Below are positions 31,832 to 41,843 of a stretch of 41,843 nucleotides of DNA, in pieces; position 1 is the stretch's first letter; each line of letters opens with the position of its first letter. The notes beneath the pieces are model-generated. The model was not told the DNA's origin and searched no databases. It was given only the letters and a program-made list of their open reading frames with translations. The stretch is from a virus. Both the position numbers and the translations under genes were made by a program. The stretch covers positions 1 to 41,843 of the IMG/VR virus record IMGVR_UViG_3300027896_000089, one strand, 5' to 3'.

Positions 31832-31878
31832 TAGTATTCCTATGTATAAAGAGTAAAAAATACAAATTTAGTGTGCGC

Positions 31879-31913
31879 CTTTTTACCGCGCAATGCGACT
31901 TTTTACCGCGCAA
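31879..31913. repeat. Tandem direct repeat, candidate integrase/IHF arm site
   Basis: CTTTTTACCGCGCAA occurs twice at 31879-31893 and 31899-31913 (period 20). It lies about 120 bases left of the attP core in a gene-free stretch, so it may be an arm-type binding site for integrase or Xis. Confidence 0.5.
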
Positions 31914-31934: not shown

Positions 31935-32031
31935 ATTTGAATTGAGATACATAAAGATTCTATTGGGGTTGCTAACGGAAATAGAAAAGTTAAGTTATTG
32001 ATTTATAACAATTTATATTTAAAATATTGCT

Positions 32032-32076
32032 CTTTTAATGCGATGGTCGCGCGTTCGAATCGCGCACGACCCACCA
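32032..32076 (+). other. attP core: 3' half of a tRNA-Lys gene
   Basis: The sequence from CTTTTAATGCGATGGTCGC through the T-arm TTCGAATC and CGACCCACCA is the anticodon-loop-to-CCA part of a tRNA-Lys(UUU). The 5' half is absent, so it is not a working tRNA. On integration it would restore the interrupted host tRNA-Lys. The integrase gene is adjacent. Confidence 0.88.
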
Positions 32077-32438: not shown

Positions 32439-33503
32439 TTATATCACTCTCCTGATTAAAGTTAATTCTGGTTTTCTGGCTTCACAAAGCAACTCAACAC
32501 AATCTATTAATCGAGCAATCTCAACTTTAGAATAATGCGTGGTAATTCTTCCAGCATGATGCCCTAATAAATCCTGCCGATCTTCAAAGCCAACACCAGC
32601 CGCTCTTAATCTCATTCCGAACGTATGGCGTAAATCATGCACCCTAACCAGCTTAAGGCCAATTGTTTCTCTTGCTTTACGCCAAGCACGATTTGTCATC
32701 CGGTCCAGCTTTCTACCTTCGAAGTCAAAAACGTATTCAGATTTATTATTACGCTTTGCTGCAACGATTGATCGAGCAACAGAGTTTAATGGCACAATGC
32801 GTTCTCGGTTATTCTTGGTTCGGGTTTCATCAATAATAAAGACAGTTGTATCAAGACCGCTAACCTTACATTCATCGGCCCATTTCATGCCACAGATTTC
32901 TTGATCTCTCAAGCCGGTATTGAGTGCAAATAAAACCATTTCTGATAAGTAGCCTGGCAGTTCTTTTAATAACAGTTCCTGCTCAGTCCAACTGATCGGC
33001 CTTGGTTTTCTCTCAATGCCATCAACCAAAGGCATCATGGGTACATTATCAAGCCAAGGCTTGCCATTCTCATCACGCCACTTTGCCGCTGACAGTTTTA
33101 ATACTCGTCTGACAGAGGCCATATCACGATTTAATGTGCCTGCACTAATCCCCGCTTTCTTTCGATCACTGATAAAGCCATCAAACACACCGGAGTGTAT
33201 TTTGGATAATTCAATATGCCCGATGTAAGGCATGATTTTATCTAAACTAATGATGTCTCTATCTAGTGATGTTTTATGACCGTATTCATCAAGGTAACGA
33301 GCTGCTGCTATCTCAAATGGTCGGTCAATCTTTTCACCATATACTTTTACTTTTCTATATTGCTCAATAAGCCTTGCTAAATAGCGTTCTGCTTGCTCAA
33401 GCTCCTTCTCTCCCGTGCTTTGTCGTATGTTGACACCGCCGATAACTTTGTCAACGTGCCAGATTTCGCCTTGCTTTCGTAGGCCTGGTGTTCTTTTTGC
33501 CAT
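32439..33503 (-). CDS. int: Tyrosine integrase
   Basis: The 354-residue tyrosine recombinase has catalytic R199 (NTGLRDQEI), K230, H289 and R292 (HDLRHTFG), H315 (LLGHH) and the nucleophile Y324 (THYSKVE), plus an N-terminal arm-binding region and a core-binding domain. It catalyses recombination between attP and a host tRNA-Lys. The motif set is complete. It overlaps the Xis-like gene by 127 bases. Confidence 0.96.
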   Translation of the reverse strand: MAKRTPGLRKQGEIWHVDKVIGGVNIRQSTGEKELEQAERYLARLIEQYRKVKVYGEKIDRPFEIAAARYLDEYGHKTSLDRDIISLDKIMPYIGHIELSKIHSGVFDGFISDRKKAGISAGTLNRDMASVRRVLKLSAAKWRDENGKPWLDNVPMMPLVDGIERKPRPISWTEQELLLKELPGYLSEMVLFALNTGLRDQEICGMKWADECKVSGLDTTVFIIDETRTKNNRERIVPLNSVARSIVAAKRNNKSEYVFDFEGRKLDRMTNRAWRKARETIGLKLVRVHDLRHTFGMRLRAAGVGFEDRQDLLGHHAGRITTHYSKVEIARLIDCVELLCEARKPELTLIRRVI

Positions 33504-35633: not shown

Positions 35634-36040
35634 TAGAATGGGATGTCGTCATCATAAGGAAGATCACCAACAACCGGCGCATGATTTTCTTTCCTTGGTT
35701 GGGGCGCTTGTTGCTGTACACCCTCTTTTTTGCTACCGACTAAATCAATAATGGTGGCGTTTAATTCCAGATTACTTTTTGTTGTGCCGTCATTCGCTTG
35801 ATATTCGTTAAGCGTTAATTCACCTGAAACAAACACTTGCTGGCCTTTCTTTAGAAAATTAACTAACTGGCCTTCCGCACGTTTACCCCACACATTACAG
35901 CGTACCCAGTTGGTTTTTTGTTTGTCACCAAAGCCGACATTGTTGGCGATGGTCACGGTTAAGATGGCAGCGCCTGACGATGCGTATCTGACTTCTGCGT
36001 CACGGACTACTGTTCCGGTAAAACTAAATACGTTACTCAT
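35633..36040 (-). CDS. ssb: Single-stranded DNA-binding protein
   Basis: The 135-residue OB-fold protein opens SNVFSFTGTVVRDAEVRYAS, has the TNWVRCNVWGKRAEGQLVNF core and a disordered tail ending DDDIPF, the acidic tip that recruits partner proteins. It supports RecT/exonuclease recombination and replication. It overlaps exonuclease by four bases. Confidence 0.95.
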   Translation of the reverse strand: MSNVFSFTGTVVRDAEVRYASSGAAILTVTIANNVGFGDKQKTNWVRCNVWGKRAEGQLVNFLKKGQQVFVSGELTLNEYQANDGTTKSNLELNATIIDLVGSKKEGVQQQAPQPRKENHAPVVGDLPYDDDIPF

Positions 36041-37830
36041 GCTGCTATCTCCATAAATCCAAACTCTTTCATAATCAAATCTTCTGCTTCTTGAGGACCC
36101 ACATCCATCCCCAACTCAACAGCAAGAATAATGCGGTCCCTAATAGTTAGTTCAGGGTTACCAGGCCGCTTATAAACAGTCGGTATCACTTCAAATGAAT
36201 CATCTTTGAATGATGTTTCTTGTTGCTTCTCTAACTCATCCGCTTCTGCTCTTAACTTGGATGCACCGGCTAACTCATCATTTCGTGTGGCGTTACTATC
36301 GGCATACTCAGCACCGGTTGCTATTTCTTTAGCTCGTGCGCGTAGTTTTTCAGGTGTTGGTTTATTGGCTTCTGCTTTAGCCAATTCTTCTTTGACTCTA
36401 AGCGCTTCTAAACGTAATTCTTCAACCAACTTGGCTTGTTCTTCCTGCCGGATCTTTTGACGTTCAGCTTCCAGTAACTTGGCTCGATCAGCTTCGGCTT
36501 TGCGCTTGGCTTCGACTTCTATTTGTAAGCGCTGTGCTTCCAACTTATCAGCTTCTGCGCGTTTATGGGAGTCAATCCTATTTTCTACTGTTAGCTTAAA
36601 ATGATCGGCATCTTGGTAAATAATTGTCTGAATGTCATTAAATAAGAAGCGGTAATCGTCTGATTTAAGCAATAAAATAAGATTGACTCGGACTGATCTA
36701 GCAATAGCATCTACTTCGATCTTGGCATTAGCTAACTCACTAGCGACTGCATCTTCCAAGCTGGCAATGGTGCGTTTATTCTTCATAGCACCGGCAAAGT
36801 CTGGATTATTAACCACTAATCTGATGGGCTGTATTTCATCCTCTACCATATCTTTGTAGACTGAATAATGCTTAACTGCGTTAGACATAATCGCAACCTT
36901 ACGTGCTTCTTTTTGCGCCTTAACGGCCTTTTCTTGTTGCAGTGCCAAAGCATTAAATTTGGACGCATACAGTTCTAACTCTCTAGTCACTTCACTGATG
37001 CTTGATGTTTGGTCAATCACACCTTTAGCCGTTTCAAGGCAGCGCTTGGCTACTACTCGACTTAGTTTGCTTTCAGCTTCTGCCCGTGCAAAATCTTCAT
37101 CGGTAACTAGGTTAACAGCGGCTTCTAACAAGAATTTGTCGAAAACAGGCCGAATGTCGTTTAAATTACAGAGTTTAAGTTCACCAGTGACTTGCACGAT
37201 AACGGCCGGTAGATCCATAATGGACTCAGCTTTGGGTAACTCGACAACTGTTTTCACTTCGTGATCTGCAAGATCGGTATTGAATTGCTCCCAACCAAAG
37301 ATAATGTCGTCTCTTAGCTTGTCATCGGAATAATACTCAAAGTGTTTTTCATCAACTAACTCATTGTTATCCCACTTGGTCGCCATAAACAAGCATTTCA
37401 TAGCACCCGATACTAAAAGCTGTTGCTCCATTTGTACGCGGTAATTCAGTGGTAGTTCTTCAGCAGAATTAACGGACCTTAATTGGTTATTGATCGTCTT
37501 ATGCTCCCAGGCAATCGCCCCATCCATTGTCAAGCCATCAAAGCTGGCTGATAACTCGCCAATGGATCCAGTCACTGGAAACAGATCTTCTCCCAGTATT
37601 TTTTCAGCTAACGGACGCGCTAATTCTTCAAAACGATGACCATCATTAAAAATGCGTTGAGTATGGGCATCAACTTCTGGTGTTAAACCAGTTTTAATCT
37701 CATTCAGTAATTGGGCTCTGGTTTTATATGGTGAGCAATTCATCATAGCCGGTGCATCACTCGCATTGAAATGAATTGAGCGATACGCCAACCATGCTGG
37801 ACTGCCTTGGATCAGGTTATGGACTTGCAT
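36037..37830 (-). CDS. YqaJ-family exonuclease with long coiled-coil extension
   Basis: The 597-residue protein starts at ATG 37830 sharing a base with the recT stop. The N-terminal ~200 residues are a YqaJ/lambda Exo-like nuclease (GSPAWLAYRSIHFNASDAPA; NDGHRFEELARPLAEKIL; DGLTMDGAIAWEHKTINN; VQMEQQLLVSG). The C-terminal 350 residues are a DUF1351-like and Ala/Glu/Lys-rich coiled-coil region. It would resect DNA for RecT. It is about twice the usual length. Confidence 0.88.
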   Translation of the reverse strand: MQVHNLIQGSPAWLAYRSIHFNASDAPAMMNCSPYKTRAQLLNEIKTGLTPEVDAHTQRIFNDGHRFEELARPLAEKILGEDLFPVTGSIGELSASFDGLTMDGAIAWEHKTINNQLRSVNSAEELPLNYRVQMEQQLLVSGAMKCLFMATKWDNNELVDEKHFEYYSDDKLRDDIIFGWEQFNTDLADHEVKTVVELPKAESIMDLPAVIVQVTGELKLCNLNDIRPVFDKFLLEAAVNLVTDEDFARAEAESKLSRVVAKRCLETAKGVIDQTSSISEVTRELELYASKFNALALQQEKAVKAQKEARKVAIMSNAVKHYSVYKDMVEDEIQPIRLVVNNPDFAGAMKNKRTIASLEDAVASELANAKIEVDAIARSVRVNLILLLKSDDYRFLFNDIQTIIYQDADHFKLTVENRIDSHKRAEADKLEAQRLQIEVEAKRKAEADRAKLLEAERQKIRQEEQAKLVEELRLEALRVKEELAKAEANKPTPEKLRARAKEIATGAEYADSNATRNDELAGASKLRAEADELEKQQETSFKDDSFEVIPTVYKRPGNPELTIRDRIILAVELGMDVGPQEAEDLIMKEFGFMEIAA

Positions 37831-38630
37831 TAGACTAACTCCCATTCAGTAGTTTCTTCCCAGGATAAGATTTCTTCTTTCTGGTCATCGGTAAATAGAT
37901 ATTTTGTTTCTATCATGGTGATTATTTGCTGTGCAGTTTTCTTGCCTTCCTTGATTAACTTGTACCAAGAATCTGCTTTTTGATGAAAGTTTTCATCAGT
38001 ACAAACTTCAAGCGCTGGTTTAACATAAGCTTCTTGTGCCGGTAATGGATTGATCTCTTTTTCTGTGATTTCATGTAATTCATCATCTGAATAAACCCCA
38101 AGGATTGCACCAGGACAATAAAGACGCGCCCAGTTCTTGACTTGTAAATAACCCATTTGTTGCTTAGGGTTGGTTTTCCAGAGTGGAGAGTTCTTGACAG
38201 CTACAGTTCTGGCAGATAACCACTCGCTCCAGACTATTTCAGATTCACCTTTAATGATGGCTCCAACTCGGCAGGATAAAGACTCACCTTCACCGTTATA
38301 TTCATAATGAAAGCGACCAGAGATTGCGCCTGATGATTGCACAACAGCATTAACTAGCTGCGCCTCATAACCCAGCACACCATTAACTAGGTGAGTCTTT
38401 TGGCCAACGGAAAATGGGTTCATTCCCCACTGGGCCGCTTGCATCACAATCGCAAAGCAATCACCAGGCGAGCCTTGTAAATGCTTTGGAACAGTGACCT
38501 TTCCATTTGCCATAACATTTGCCAGTGTATTAAATTGGTCCATCATGGATGGATTTCTAACCAACTCGGAAGCACTAACCGGCAGCGTGCCATTTGACTC
38601 AGCTACTCTTAATTCAGTTACATTACTCAT
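37830..38630 (-). CDS. recT: RecT-family single-strand annealing protein
   Basis: The 266-residue protein has the RecT pattern GDCFAIVMQAAQWGMNPFSV, GQKTHLVNGVLGYEAQLVNA, and LWKTNPKQQMGYLQVKNWAR. It anneals homologous single strands produced by the exonuclease. It is coupled to its upstream and downstream genes. Length is typical. Confidence 0.93.
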   Translation of the reverse strand: MSNVTELRVAESNGTLPVSASELVRNPSMMDQFNTLANVMANGKVTVPKHLQGSPGDCFAIVMQAAQWGMNPFSVGQKTHLVNGVLGYEAQLVNAVVQSSGAISGRFHYEYNGEGESLSCRVGAIIKGESEIVWSEWLSARTVAVKNSPLWKTNPKQQMGYLQVKNWARLYCPGAILGVYSDDELHEITEKEINPLPAQEAYVKPALEVCTDENFHQKADSWYKLIKEGKKTAQQIITMIETKYLFTDDQKEEILSWEETTEWELV

Positions 38631-39776: not shown

Positions 39777-39825
39777 TATAAAGTTATGAGTACTTTATAA
39801 AAAGCACCCTGAATCAAGATGCTTT
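39777..39825. other. Two consecutive AT-rich hairpins
   Basis: TATAAAGT/ACTTTATA (39777-39784/39792-39799) and AAAGCA/TGCTTT (39801-39806/39820-39825) form adjacent hairpins between the repeat gene and the terminator. They could protect the 3' end or aid termination. Confidence 0.45.
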
Positions 39826-39835
39826 GTATAAATTG

Positions 39836-40063
39836 CTAACCGGAACCGTAACCGGAACCGGAACCGTAACCGGAACCGTCACCGGAACCGTCACCGGAAC
39901 CGTCACCGTAATCGTAACCGGAACCGTCACCGTCACCGTCACCGTCACCGTCACCGTAACCGGAACCGTCACCGTCACCGTAACCGTAATCGTCACAGGA
40001 ACCGTCACCGTAATCGTCACCGTAACCGGAACCGTCACCGGAACCGATAGTTACGCTTTCCAT
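39836..40063 (-). CDS. Glycine-alternating (GS/GY/GD) low-complexity protein
   Basis: This 75-residue protein starts with MESVTIGSGDGSGYG and continues as Gly alternating with Ser, Tyr and Asp to the end (GSGYGSG). Its ATG lies 13 bases inside the upstream gene, in a different frame, so it could be translated by coupling. Similar Gly-Ser-Tyr repeat proteins exist in phages next to this upstream gene family. Function is unknown; a phase-separating or filamentous property is conceivable. Other frames are also open because the DNA is a hexamer repeat, so the protein is less certain than its upstream neighbour. Confidence 0.6.
   Translation of the reverse strand: MESVTIGSGDGSGYGDDYGDGSCDDYGYGDGDGSGYGDGDGDGDGDGSGYDYGDGSGDGSGDGSGYGSGSGYGSG
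39841..40044. repeat. Array of 34 hexamers (CGNNAC-type)
   Basis: The segment is 34 consecutive hexamers with no indel: CGGAAC, CGTAAC, CGTCAC, three CGTAAT and one AGGAAC. Read on the minus strand in the frame above they encode Gly-Ser, Gly-Tyr, Gly-Asp, Asp-Tyr and Cys variants. The array stays perfectly in phase and ends within the 3' overlap of the upstream gene. Confidence 0.95.
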
Positions 40064-40338
40064 GTCGGAACCGAATCAATAGATGCTTTAGCCTTGTCAG
40101 TAATTGGAATGATCTCAATTACCTCGGTAAGCAAAACTTCATCAACTGCAACCGGAAACTTACATTTTTCAGGCTTACTTGTGCCATCTGTTGCGAGTTG
40201 CGATAACGTCGCAGCACCGTACCAATAATAAATCCGCCGTGCATTGGTGAGCTTTGCGGATTTTCCTTCCAGTGTTTCAATAGTTCCAGCAAATACACCC
40301 GCTGAATACGTTCTAACCATGCAATAACGACCAATCAT
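40051..40338 (-). CDS. DUF6948-like phage protein
   Basis: A 95-residue protein with the pattern RTYSAGVFAGTIETLEGKSA, LTNARRIYYWYGAATLSQLA and a C-terminal EIIPITDKAKASIDSVPTWK. This matches the small phage DUF6948 family. It is the first gene after the strong leftward promoter at 40467-40495 and is preceded by a CGGGAG ribosome-binding site. Function is unknown. Confidence 0.85.
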   Translation of the reverse strand: MIGRYCMVRTYSAGVFAGTIETLEGKSAKLTNARRIYYWYGAATLSQLATDGTSKPEKCKFPVAVDEVLLTEVIEIIPITDKAKASIDSVPTWKA

Positions 40339-40466: not shown

Positions 40467-40495
40467 ATTATTCGCCTCAAGCGAATTAATGTCAA
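40467..40495 (-). promoter_or_regulatory. Strong leftward promoter (PL-like)
   Basis: On the minus strand a consensus TTGACA (40495-40490) is followed after 17 bases by AATAAT (40472-40467). It reads toward the DUF6948-like gene. Confidence 0.8.
40470..40486. promoter_or_regulatory. Operator within the leftward promoter
   Basis: The inverted repeat ATTCGC-CTCAA-GCGAAT fills the spacer between -35 and -10. A further GCGAAT half-site is at 40505-40510. The sequence differs from the operator at 421-435, so another repressor may bind it. Confidence 0.6.
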
Positions 40496-41545: not shown

Positions 41546-41827
41546 TCAATCATCCTTTCGCCTGGTGTAAGCCAATACGTCATTAAAGCTCATGTTTTTA
41601 GTGTGATCGACAGCGGTTGCGCAAGGTGGCTCGCAGTAACACTCGTTGTCCCTACATTTTGTTTTTACCATTTCGACATAACGCTTATTGGCTTCGACTT
41701 CTTCTGCATGTCTTTCCATCACACAACGATCCTGTTCTGTTGCCAGCTCATCTAAAAACCGTCTTCGCTCGAGGTTCCCTTCTTTTATCAGACGATCAGT
41801 CACCCTGCGGTCTATAGCCAAGTTCAC
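41546..41827 (-). CDS. Hypothetical protein at the contig edge, 5' end uncertain
   Basis: The frame encodes 93 residues from the GTG at 41827, but the 5' side is a C homopolymer and stays open. It is charged and helical (RRFLDELATEQDRCVMERHA, EEVEANKRYVEMVKTKCR) followed by CYCEPPCATAV. No ribosome-binding site is visible. If the two contig ends join, this could be the C-terminal part of the CI-like protein. No family is recognised. Confidence 0.5.
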   Translation of the reverse strand: MNLAIDRRVTDRLIKEGNLERRRFLDELATEQDRCVMERHAEEVEANKRYVEMVKTKCRDNECYCEPPCATAVDHTKNMSFNDVLAYTRRKDD

Positions 41828-41843
41828 CCCCCCCCCCCCCCCC
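41827..41843. repeat. Poly-C run at the contig end
   Basis: Seventeen Cs end the window, and five Cs begin it. A poly-C run at a contig edge is typical of read or assembly artefacts and probably does not reflect the true sequence length. Confidence 0.9.

Follow-up and report, generated by a model that had tools for sequence, protein, structure and literature searches.

What does an uninterrupted array of phased hexamers encode in a virus, and why should its units differ almost exclusively at the bases that choose an amino acid? The array lies in an IMG/VR virus record of 41.8 kb that also carries integrase, RecE-like, RecT-like and tail genes (this whole stretch of 41,843 nucleotides is referred to as the window), and has the higher score (217) of the two arrays that TRF detects there. 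Read on the minus strand, the open reading frame runs from ATG GAA AGC GTA ACT ATC through 34 hexamers to a final GGT and a TAG stop, giving a 75-codon product, MESVTI(GX)34G, in which X is Asp, Ser or Tyr (Table 1). The initial annotation had placed the array exactly on this frame, and had described 34 hexamers without an indel, a Gly codon that is GGT nearly throughout, and no synonymous changes, all of which hold. The units are GGTGAC (13), GGTTCC (11), GGTTAC (6), GATTAC (3) and TGTGAC (1); the Gly position is thus off in 4 units, 3 with GAT and 1 with TGT, which fits the wording "nearly throughout". Considering that all Gly codons are GGT and all X codons end in C, silent change is absent from the array.

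Table 1. Positions of the array, its partner gene and surrounding features in the window.
Feature	Position	Strand	Evidence or remark
(Gly-X)n repeat gene, 75 aa	39836..40063	minus	ATG at 40063, TAG at 39838..39836; frame kept in relatives
34 in-phase hexamers	39842..40045	minus	GGT/GAT/TGT then GAC/TCC/TAC; no indel
DUF6948 gene, 95 aa, predicted Sm-like fold	40051..40338	minus	Pfam PF22253, E=5.4e-31
Overlap of DUF6948 end and repeat gene start, 13 nt	40051..40063	minus	same geometry in 70/82 loci
Promoter-like TTGACA-17-AATAAT	40467..40495	minus	11/12 matches, upstream of DUF6948; by site count, such sites are no commoner than in shuffles
Stem-loop and U-rich stretch, terminator-like	39794..39832	minus	MFE -17.1 kcal/mol, z -4.1; directly 3' of repeat gene
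Cassette common to window and Methylococcaceae MAG contig L024	39519..40455	minus	82.6% identity, 943 columns
RecT-like annealing protein gene	37830..38630	minus	Pfam and PHROG matches; neighbour
RecE-like exonuclease gene	36037..37845	minus	PHROG E=1e-138; neighbour

The initial annotation described the behaviour of the array correctly and overlooked the gene with which it is paired. This first gene encodes a member of the DUF6948 family (PF22253), matching with 107 bits against a curated cut-off of 27 over residues 4-87 of 95, and its overlap with the repeat gene likely couples the translation of both. The closest cellular match is L024, the contig from a Methylococcaceae metagenome-assembled genome (MAG), whose DUF6948 is 91% identical. 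Because the sole aligning part of the 4 kb compared is the 0.94 kb around both genes, the pair looks, from this alignment, like a self-contained cassette. Among 398 sampled Pseudomonadota genomes DUF6948 was found in a single one, which is L024's own, indicating that it is mainly a phage gene. Our search of the literature returned no relevant paper naming DUF6948 or its repeat peptides, and no published description of the pair.

To establish how constant the pairing is, we took a forward and a reverse census. In the forward census, relatives were retrieved by DUF6948 similarity alone from viral contigs, annotated phages and one MAG, except for four gut-type loci, which were retrieved via a neighbouring protein. 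An automatic scan found a (Gly-X)n open reading frame directly downstream in 97 of 101 DUF6948 loci; it picked an ambiguous frame in a few rows, and the statistics given here are based on a set of 82 clean, non-redundant arrays with 3021 units. In 70 of these 82 loci the repeat gene starts at the same -13 position. The Gly-X frame is the sole conserved frame of the arrays in relatives, and the overlapping plus-strand frame at 39824-40228 was rejected as coding on that ground. The minus-strand frame is kept in 97 of the 101 relatives and their array lengths are all in frame, rather than showing the loss of frame or the frame-breaking lengths that the initial annotation had named as speaking against it. 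Matches of repeat proteins to Pfam TrAA12, Serglycin and similar families fall below the cut-offs, and were read as chance hits of low complexity. We are close to certain that the repeat frame is a genuine coding gene within a conserved pair, and can discard the idea that the repeat arose by chance or is a feature of the DNA alone, given the pairing in 97 of 101 loci and the retained peptide pattern.

For the reverse census, we searched viral contigs for uninterrupted runs of ten GGYKMY hexamers, which yielded 80 loci. A DUF6948 gene was called by HMM just upstream in 37 of them, 18 were cut by the locus edge and 25 were without such a call. Eleven of these 25 are plain single-dipeptide runs in unrelated reading frames, two have no candidate partner, and eight carry a divergent small protein at the same overlapping position. 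The likeness of the divergent eight to DUF6948 is weak (hhalign E 0.0016, with a probability of 16%), and one of them matches Pfam DUF6948 below the cut-off. Of the remaining four, L133, L140 and L163 have DUF6948 close to the array, and L126 carries it within the same open reading frame as the repeat. Pairing in this direction thus amounts to 49 of 51, or 41 of 51 if the divergent eight are excluded. Among the named carriers are Pectobacterium phages, Iodobacter phage PhiPLPE, Vibrio phage IKEMa6-1 and Chlorobiaceae phage CV-1-33, and the cassette is also found in records of Neisseria gonorrhoeae and in one of Monoglobus. As far as sequence similarity can tell, the cassette is carried by many bacterial viruses, and its repeat protein is widespread in phages. 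The two N. gonorrhoeae records (L236 and L237) have DUF6948 with an Asn-rich Gly-X array that differs between the two strains. In PhiPLPE, the repeat frame (L017 1189-1461) falls inside a gap of the deposited annotation, and such genes may therefore be under-annotated.

What is conserved in these arrays is the choice of residues. Over the 3021 units, Ser (36%), Tyr (29%) and Asp (22%) together fill 87% of X positions, followed by Phe and Asn (approximately 3% each), while Ala accounts for 0.4% and Lys plus Arg for 0.3%; the Gly position is Gly in 96% of cases. Across 76 arrays, aromatics make up at least 11% of X in every one and Lys and Arg are absent from 68, whereas the acidic share ranges from 0 to 43% and is not universal. 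Any two of the codons for Ser, Tyr and Asp are separated by transversions only, so that such a mix is not what mutation bias would produce, and the products of transitions (Phe, Cys, Asn, His, Gly and Pro) each account for under 3% of X. With silent changes missing and transition products rare, independent point mutation was rejected as the source of X variation. The third bases of the Gly and X codons vary between phages (C/C, C/T, T/C or G/C), which means that the conserved thing is the peptide, not the DNA unit.

Within arrays, the fraction of bases that deviate from the mode is 0.021, 0.016, 0.070, 0.311, 0.406 and 0.081 for hexamer positions 1 to 6 (76 arrays); in other words, silent bases are approximately uniform (7-8% off-mode), and the two bases that choose between Ser, Tyr and Asp deviate in 31-41%. 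Silent sites are homogenised and residue-choosing sites are still mixed. The initial annotation had proposed that the array expanded recently or belongs to a system in which residue choice varies and the frame is preserved. This reading is supported and holds generally: the same pattern recurs in the arrays of 76 relatives, and some phages with identical flanks have different arrays. The Pectobacterium phages Ymer and Amona have no differences in the 399 nt of the DUF6948 gene and are identical over 200 nt downstream, yet their repeat products are 73 and 67 aa long with a different unit order. A third Pectobacterium phage, Taid, has 1 difference in 399 and an 85-aa product, and its downstream flank differs as well. 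Between the window and L024, the DUF6948 codons show 22 silent and 9 replacement differences and there is no significant alignment of unit order (p=0.21), with GGT-xxC used exclusively in both.

Tandem-block duplication is detected at p<0.01 in 17 of 72 arrays, suggesting a partial contribution of slippage or unequal recombination; it was rejected as the sole route, since it is confined to those 17 and the window array (p=0.98) is not among them. The words that the arrays of near-identical phages have in common are short, which requires either exchange with a donor or very fast turnover. Diversity-generating retroelements are recognised by template-adenine changes spread over many residues; here, X variation is confined to few codons (TCx, TAx and GAx), the silent bases are homogeneous, and that signature is missing. 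We consider it probable that the arrays undergo fast in-frame recombinational turnover, together with selection for a mix of sticker, acidic and spacer residues. The RecT-like annealing protein could possibly aid recombination of the array, and the neighbours of the cassette in relatives are often recombination or replication genes, which would fit array exchange driven by annealases.

The partner gene offers a clue to the role of the repeat protein. An AlphaFold2 model of DUF6948, built with 70 sequences, has a pLDDT of 98.2 and a pTM of 0.88, and all 50 of the 50 Foldseek matches listed against the PDB are Sm/LSm proteins or complexes containing them (best match: E 1.9e-3, probability 1.00). 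With VIA-align, Z reaches 7.8, typically over approximately 60 residues at 1.6-2.2 A; according to the tool's warning, a Z under 8 may reflect just a common arrangement. We nevertheless read the fold as Sm-like because the matches belong uniformly to one family. The predicted model shows the bent five-stranded barrel, with moderate scores, and on this basis DUF6948 very probably has an Sm-like fold, although sharing a fold does not by itself reveal a function. The canonical Sm2 I-R-G of Sm/LSm proteins is absent: residues 70-72, between strands 65-70 and 73-78, are L-T-E, and LTE is also the family consensus at this position. We therefore did not file DUF6948 under Sm/LSm or Hfq. Pfam Hfq (PF17209) gave no match to the DUF6948 protein of the window and a weak one (E=0.023, short of the cut-off) to one divergent relative, and a sequence search of solved structures with DUF6948 found none. 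With a mean net charge of +2.2 the protein is weakly basic, and no correlation was seen between its charge and the acidity of the repeat protein.

Proteins with an Sm core and a disordered tail provide the nearest parallels. In Escherichia coli Hfq, the acidic disordered tail attaches to the rim of the Sm core in competition with nucleic acid, and a free tail peptide does the same (PMC5606850); GGFGGQ repeats and an acidic tip tune RNA binding by Acinetobacter baumannii Hfq (PMC11617691), and an 11-residue C-terminal motif of Hfq forms amyloid-like filaments (PMC10590398). By analogy, we tentatively favour the reading that the repeat protein is a disordered, acidic-aromatic, tail-like partner of an Sm-like nucleic-acid binder. 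DUF6948 would form a small ring that binds nucleic acid, and the (Gly-X)n product, with Tyr/Phe stickers, acidic Asp, Ser spacers and nearly no Lys or Arg, would act on it in trans, as the acidic or Gly-aromatic tail of Hfq does in cis, by competing for the nucleic-acid site, by gathering rings into assemblies, or both. The array would be rearranged in frame constantly, by recombination or slippage and perhaps with the help of phage annealases, while selection maintains the mixture of sticker, acidic and spacer residues. Contact between the two proteins, the ring, nucleic-acid binding and the route of recombination are steps that we infer. The constant pairing with its overlap, the fusion in L126, the predicted fold, the residue constraint, the turnover between identical flanks, the recombination or replication neighbours and the Hfq precedents speak for a tail-like role. 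The moderate fold scores, the absent Sm2 I-R-G, the weak basicity, the charge of DUF6948 that does not follow the acidity of the repeat protein, and the acid that is sometimes nil count against it.

The pair resembles A. baumannii Hfq in combining an Sm-like core with a Gly-rich aromatic low-complexity part that bears acid (PMC11617691). It differs in that Hfq is one protein from a host gene, whereas here two overlapping phage genes (fused in locus L126) encode a Gly-X repeat of period two with Asp throughout and a hypervariable array. With the C-terminal domain of E. coli Hfq it would share a disordered acidic peptide on an Sm rim, measurable there also in trans (PMC5606850); that domain, unlike the repeat protein, has no repeat array, carries its acid at the tip and naturally acts in cis. 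The pair is best placed within the theme of an Sm core plus a disordered tail, the tail being a separate, hypervariable gene. A bolder and somewhat unlikely extension is a form of diversification without a retroelement, in which in-frame reshuffling of hexamers might rewrite the sticker and acid pattern of the low-complexity partner of an Sm-like ring, giving tunable nucleoprotein condensates or fast counter-defence.

Among other explanations, we regard it as unlikely that the repeat protein blocks a host defence or a nucleic-acid enzyme as an acidic mimic or decoy of nucleic acid, its hypervariability reflecting an arms race with DUF6948 as a helper. The repeat proteins examined are all net negative (mean -11), and early-region neighbours, cassette-like sharing and fast change would suit this role; however, a period of two residues combined with a large aromatic share is atypical of known DNA mimics, acid is sometimes absent, and the obligate association with a single Sm-like protein directs attention to that partner. 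Distinctly unlikely, in our judgement, is a silk-like or scaffold material whose alternating Gly-X strands would pile up as beta fibres or a gel, either inside the infected cell or in the virion. The strict (GX)n alternation, with Gly so constant at its position, is that of silk fibroin, and L126 and the gut-type phages attach the repeat to a globular domain, but Ala, expected at most X positions of a silk-like repeat, is nearly absent, the abundant Asp disfavours stacking, and the neighbours are replication and recombination genes, not structural ones. FUS-type low-complexity domains are alike in Gly/Ser/Tyr composition, and differ, as silk does, from a small phage protein with abundant Asp and almost no Ala. 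The likeness to condensate-forming low-complexity sequences seen by the initial annotation holds for composition, which is compatible with such a domain. It is highly improbable that the array matters as DNA or RNA, as a recombination hotspot or a replication or regulatory element with the protein as a by-product: homogeneous hexamers and fast rearrangement could be read that way, yet one peptide pattern is retained across phages whose hexamer sequences vary, and the start codon at a fixed position, the aromatic floor and the avoidance of Ala speak for the protein. We give a negligible probability to a functionless microsatellite that expanded recently and neutrally, or to an artefact of assembly. 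Hexamer slippage is generally common and the record has C runs at both ends, but the array follows DUF6948 in 97 of 101 loci, cultured phages included, transition products are rare, and conserved pairing and residues contradict it.

DUF6948, a family so far without known function, gains a predicted fold and a constant partner. Aromatics are reported to be heavily under-represented in low-complexity regions of prokaryotes (PMC6821194), and here is a widespread phage low-complexity protein that is rich in them. Near-identical cultured phages that differ in sticker pattern form natural sets for studying the evolution and role of disordered sequence.

Several loci depart from the standard arrangement. 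DUF6948 and the repeat are fused in a single open reading frame in L126, and phrog_18306, with a DUF6948 match at its end and a repeat match in its middle, is a possible second fusion. In gut-type phages and in Monoglobus, a larger protein begins with the repeat and ends in an undescribed C-terminal domain; in the gut-type loci L026, L028, L117, L146, L147, L170, L185 and L188 this domain has invariant His-Gly and Thr-Gly-x-Cys motifs. Its model has a pLDDT of 94.7, and a fold search gave no informative match among the matches listed. A relative of this domain occurs as a separate gene in the same neighbourhood in L121. Locus L140 (1692-2935) contains five or more copies of the repeat gene in tandem, which share identical ends, MGLKAFLKFG...EPNLTSAGATVVEE, and differ in their arrays. 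In L163 (1-1108) two repeat genes flank a DUF6948 gene, apparently as two DUF6948-repeat pairs in tandem.

As for the window itself, its structural genes had no near DNA match among phage records. A 20-bp tandem repeat (31874-31913) and a partial tRNA match (32010-32065), the sole match of an Rfam scan, lie beside the integrase gene (32439-33503), in what is possibly an attachment region. The record begins with 5 C (1-5) and ends with 17 (41827-41843), runs that are probably an artefact of library preparation or assembly.
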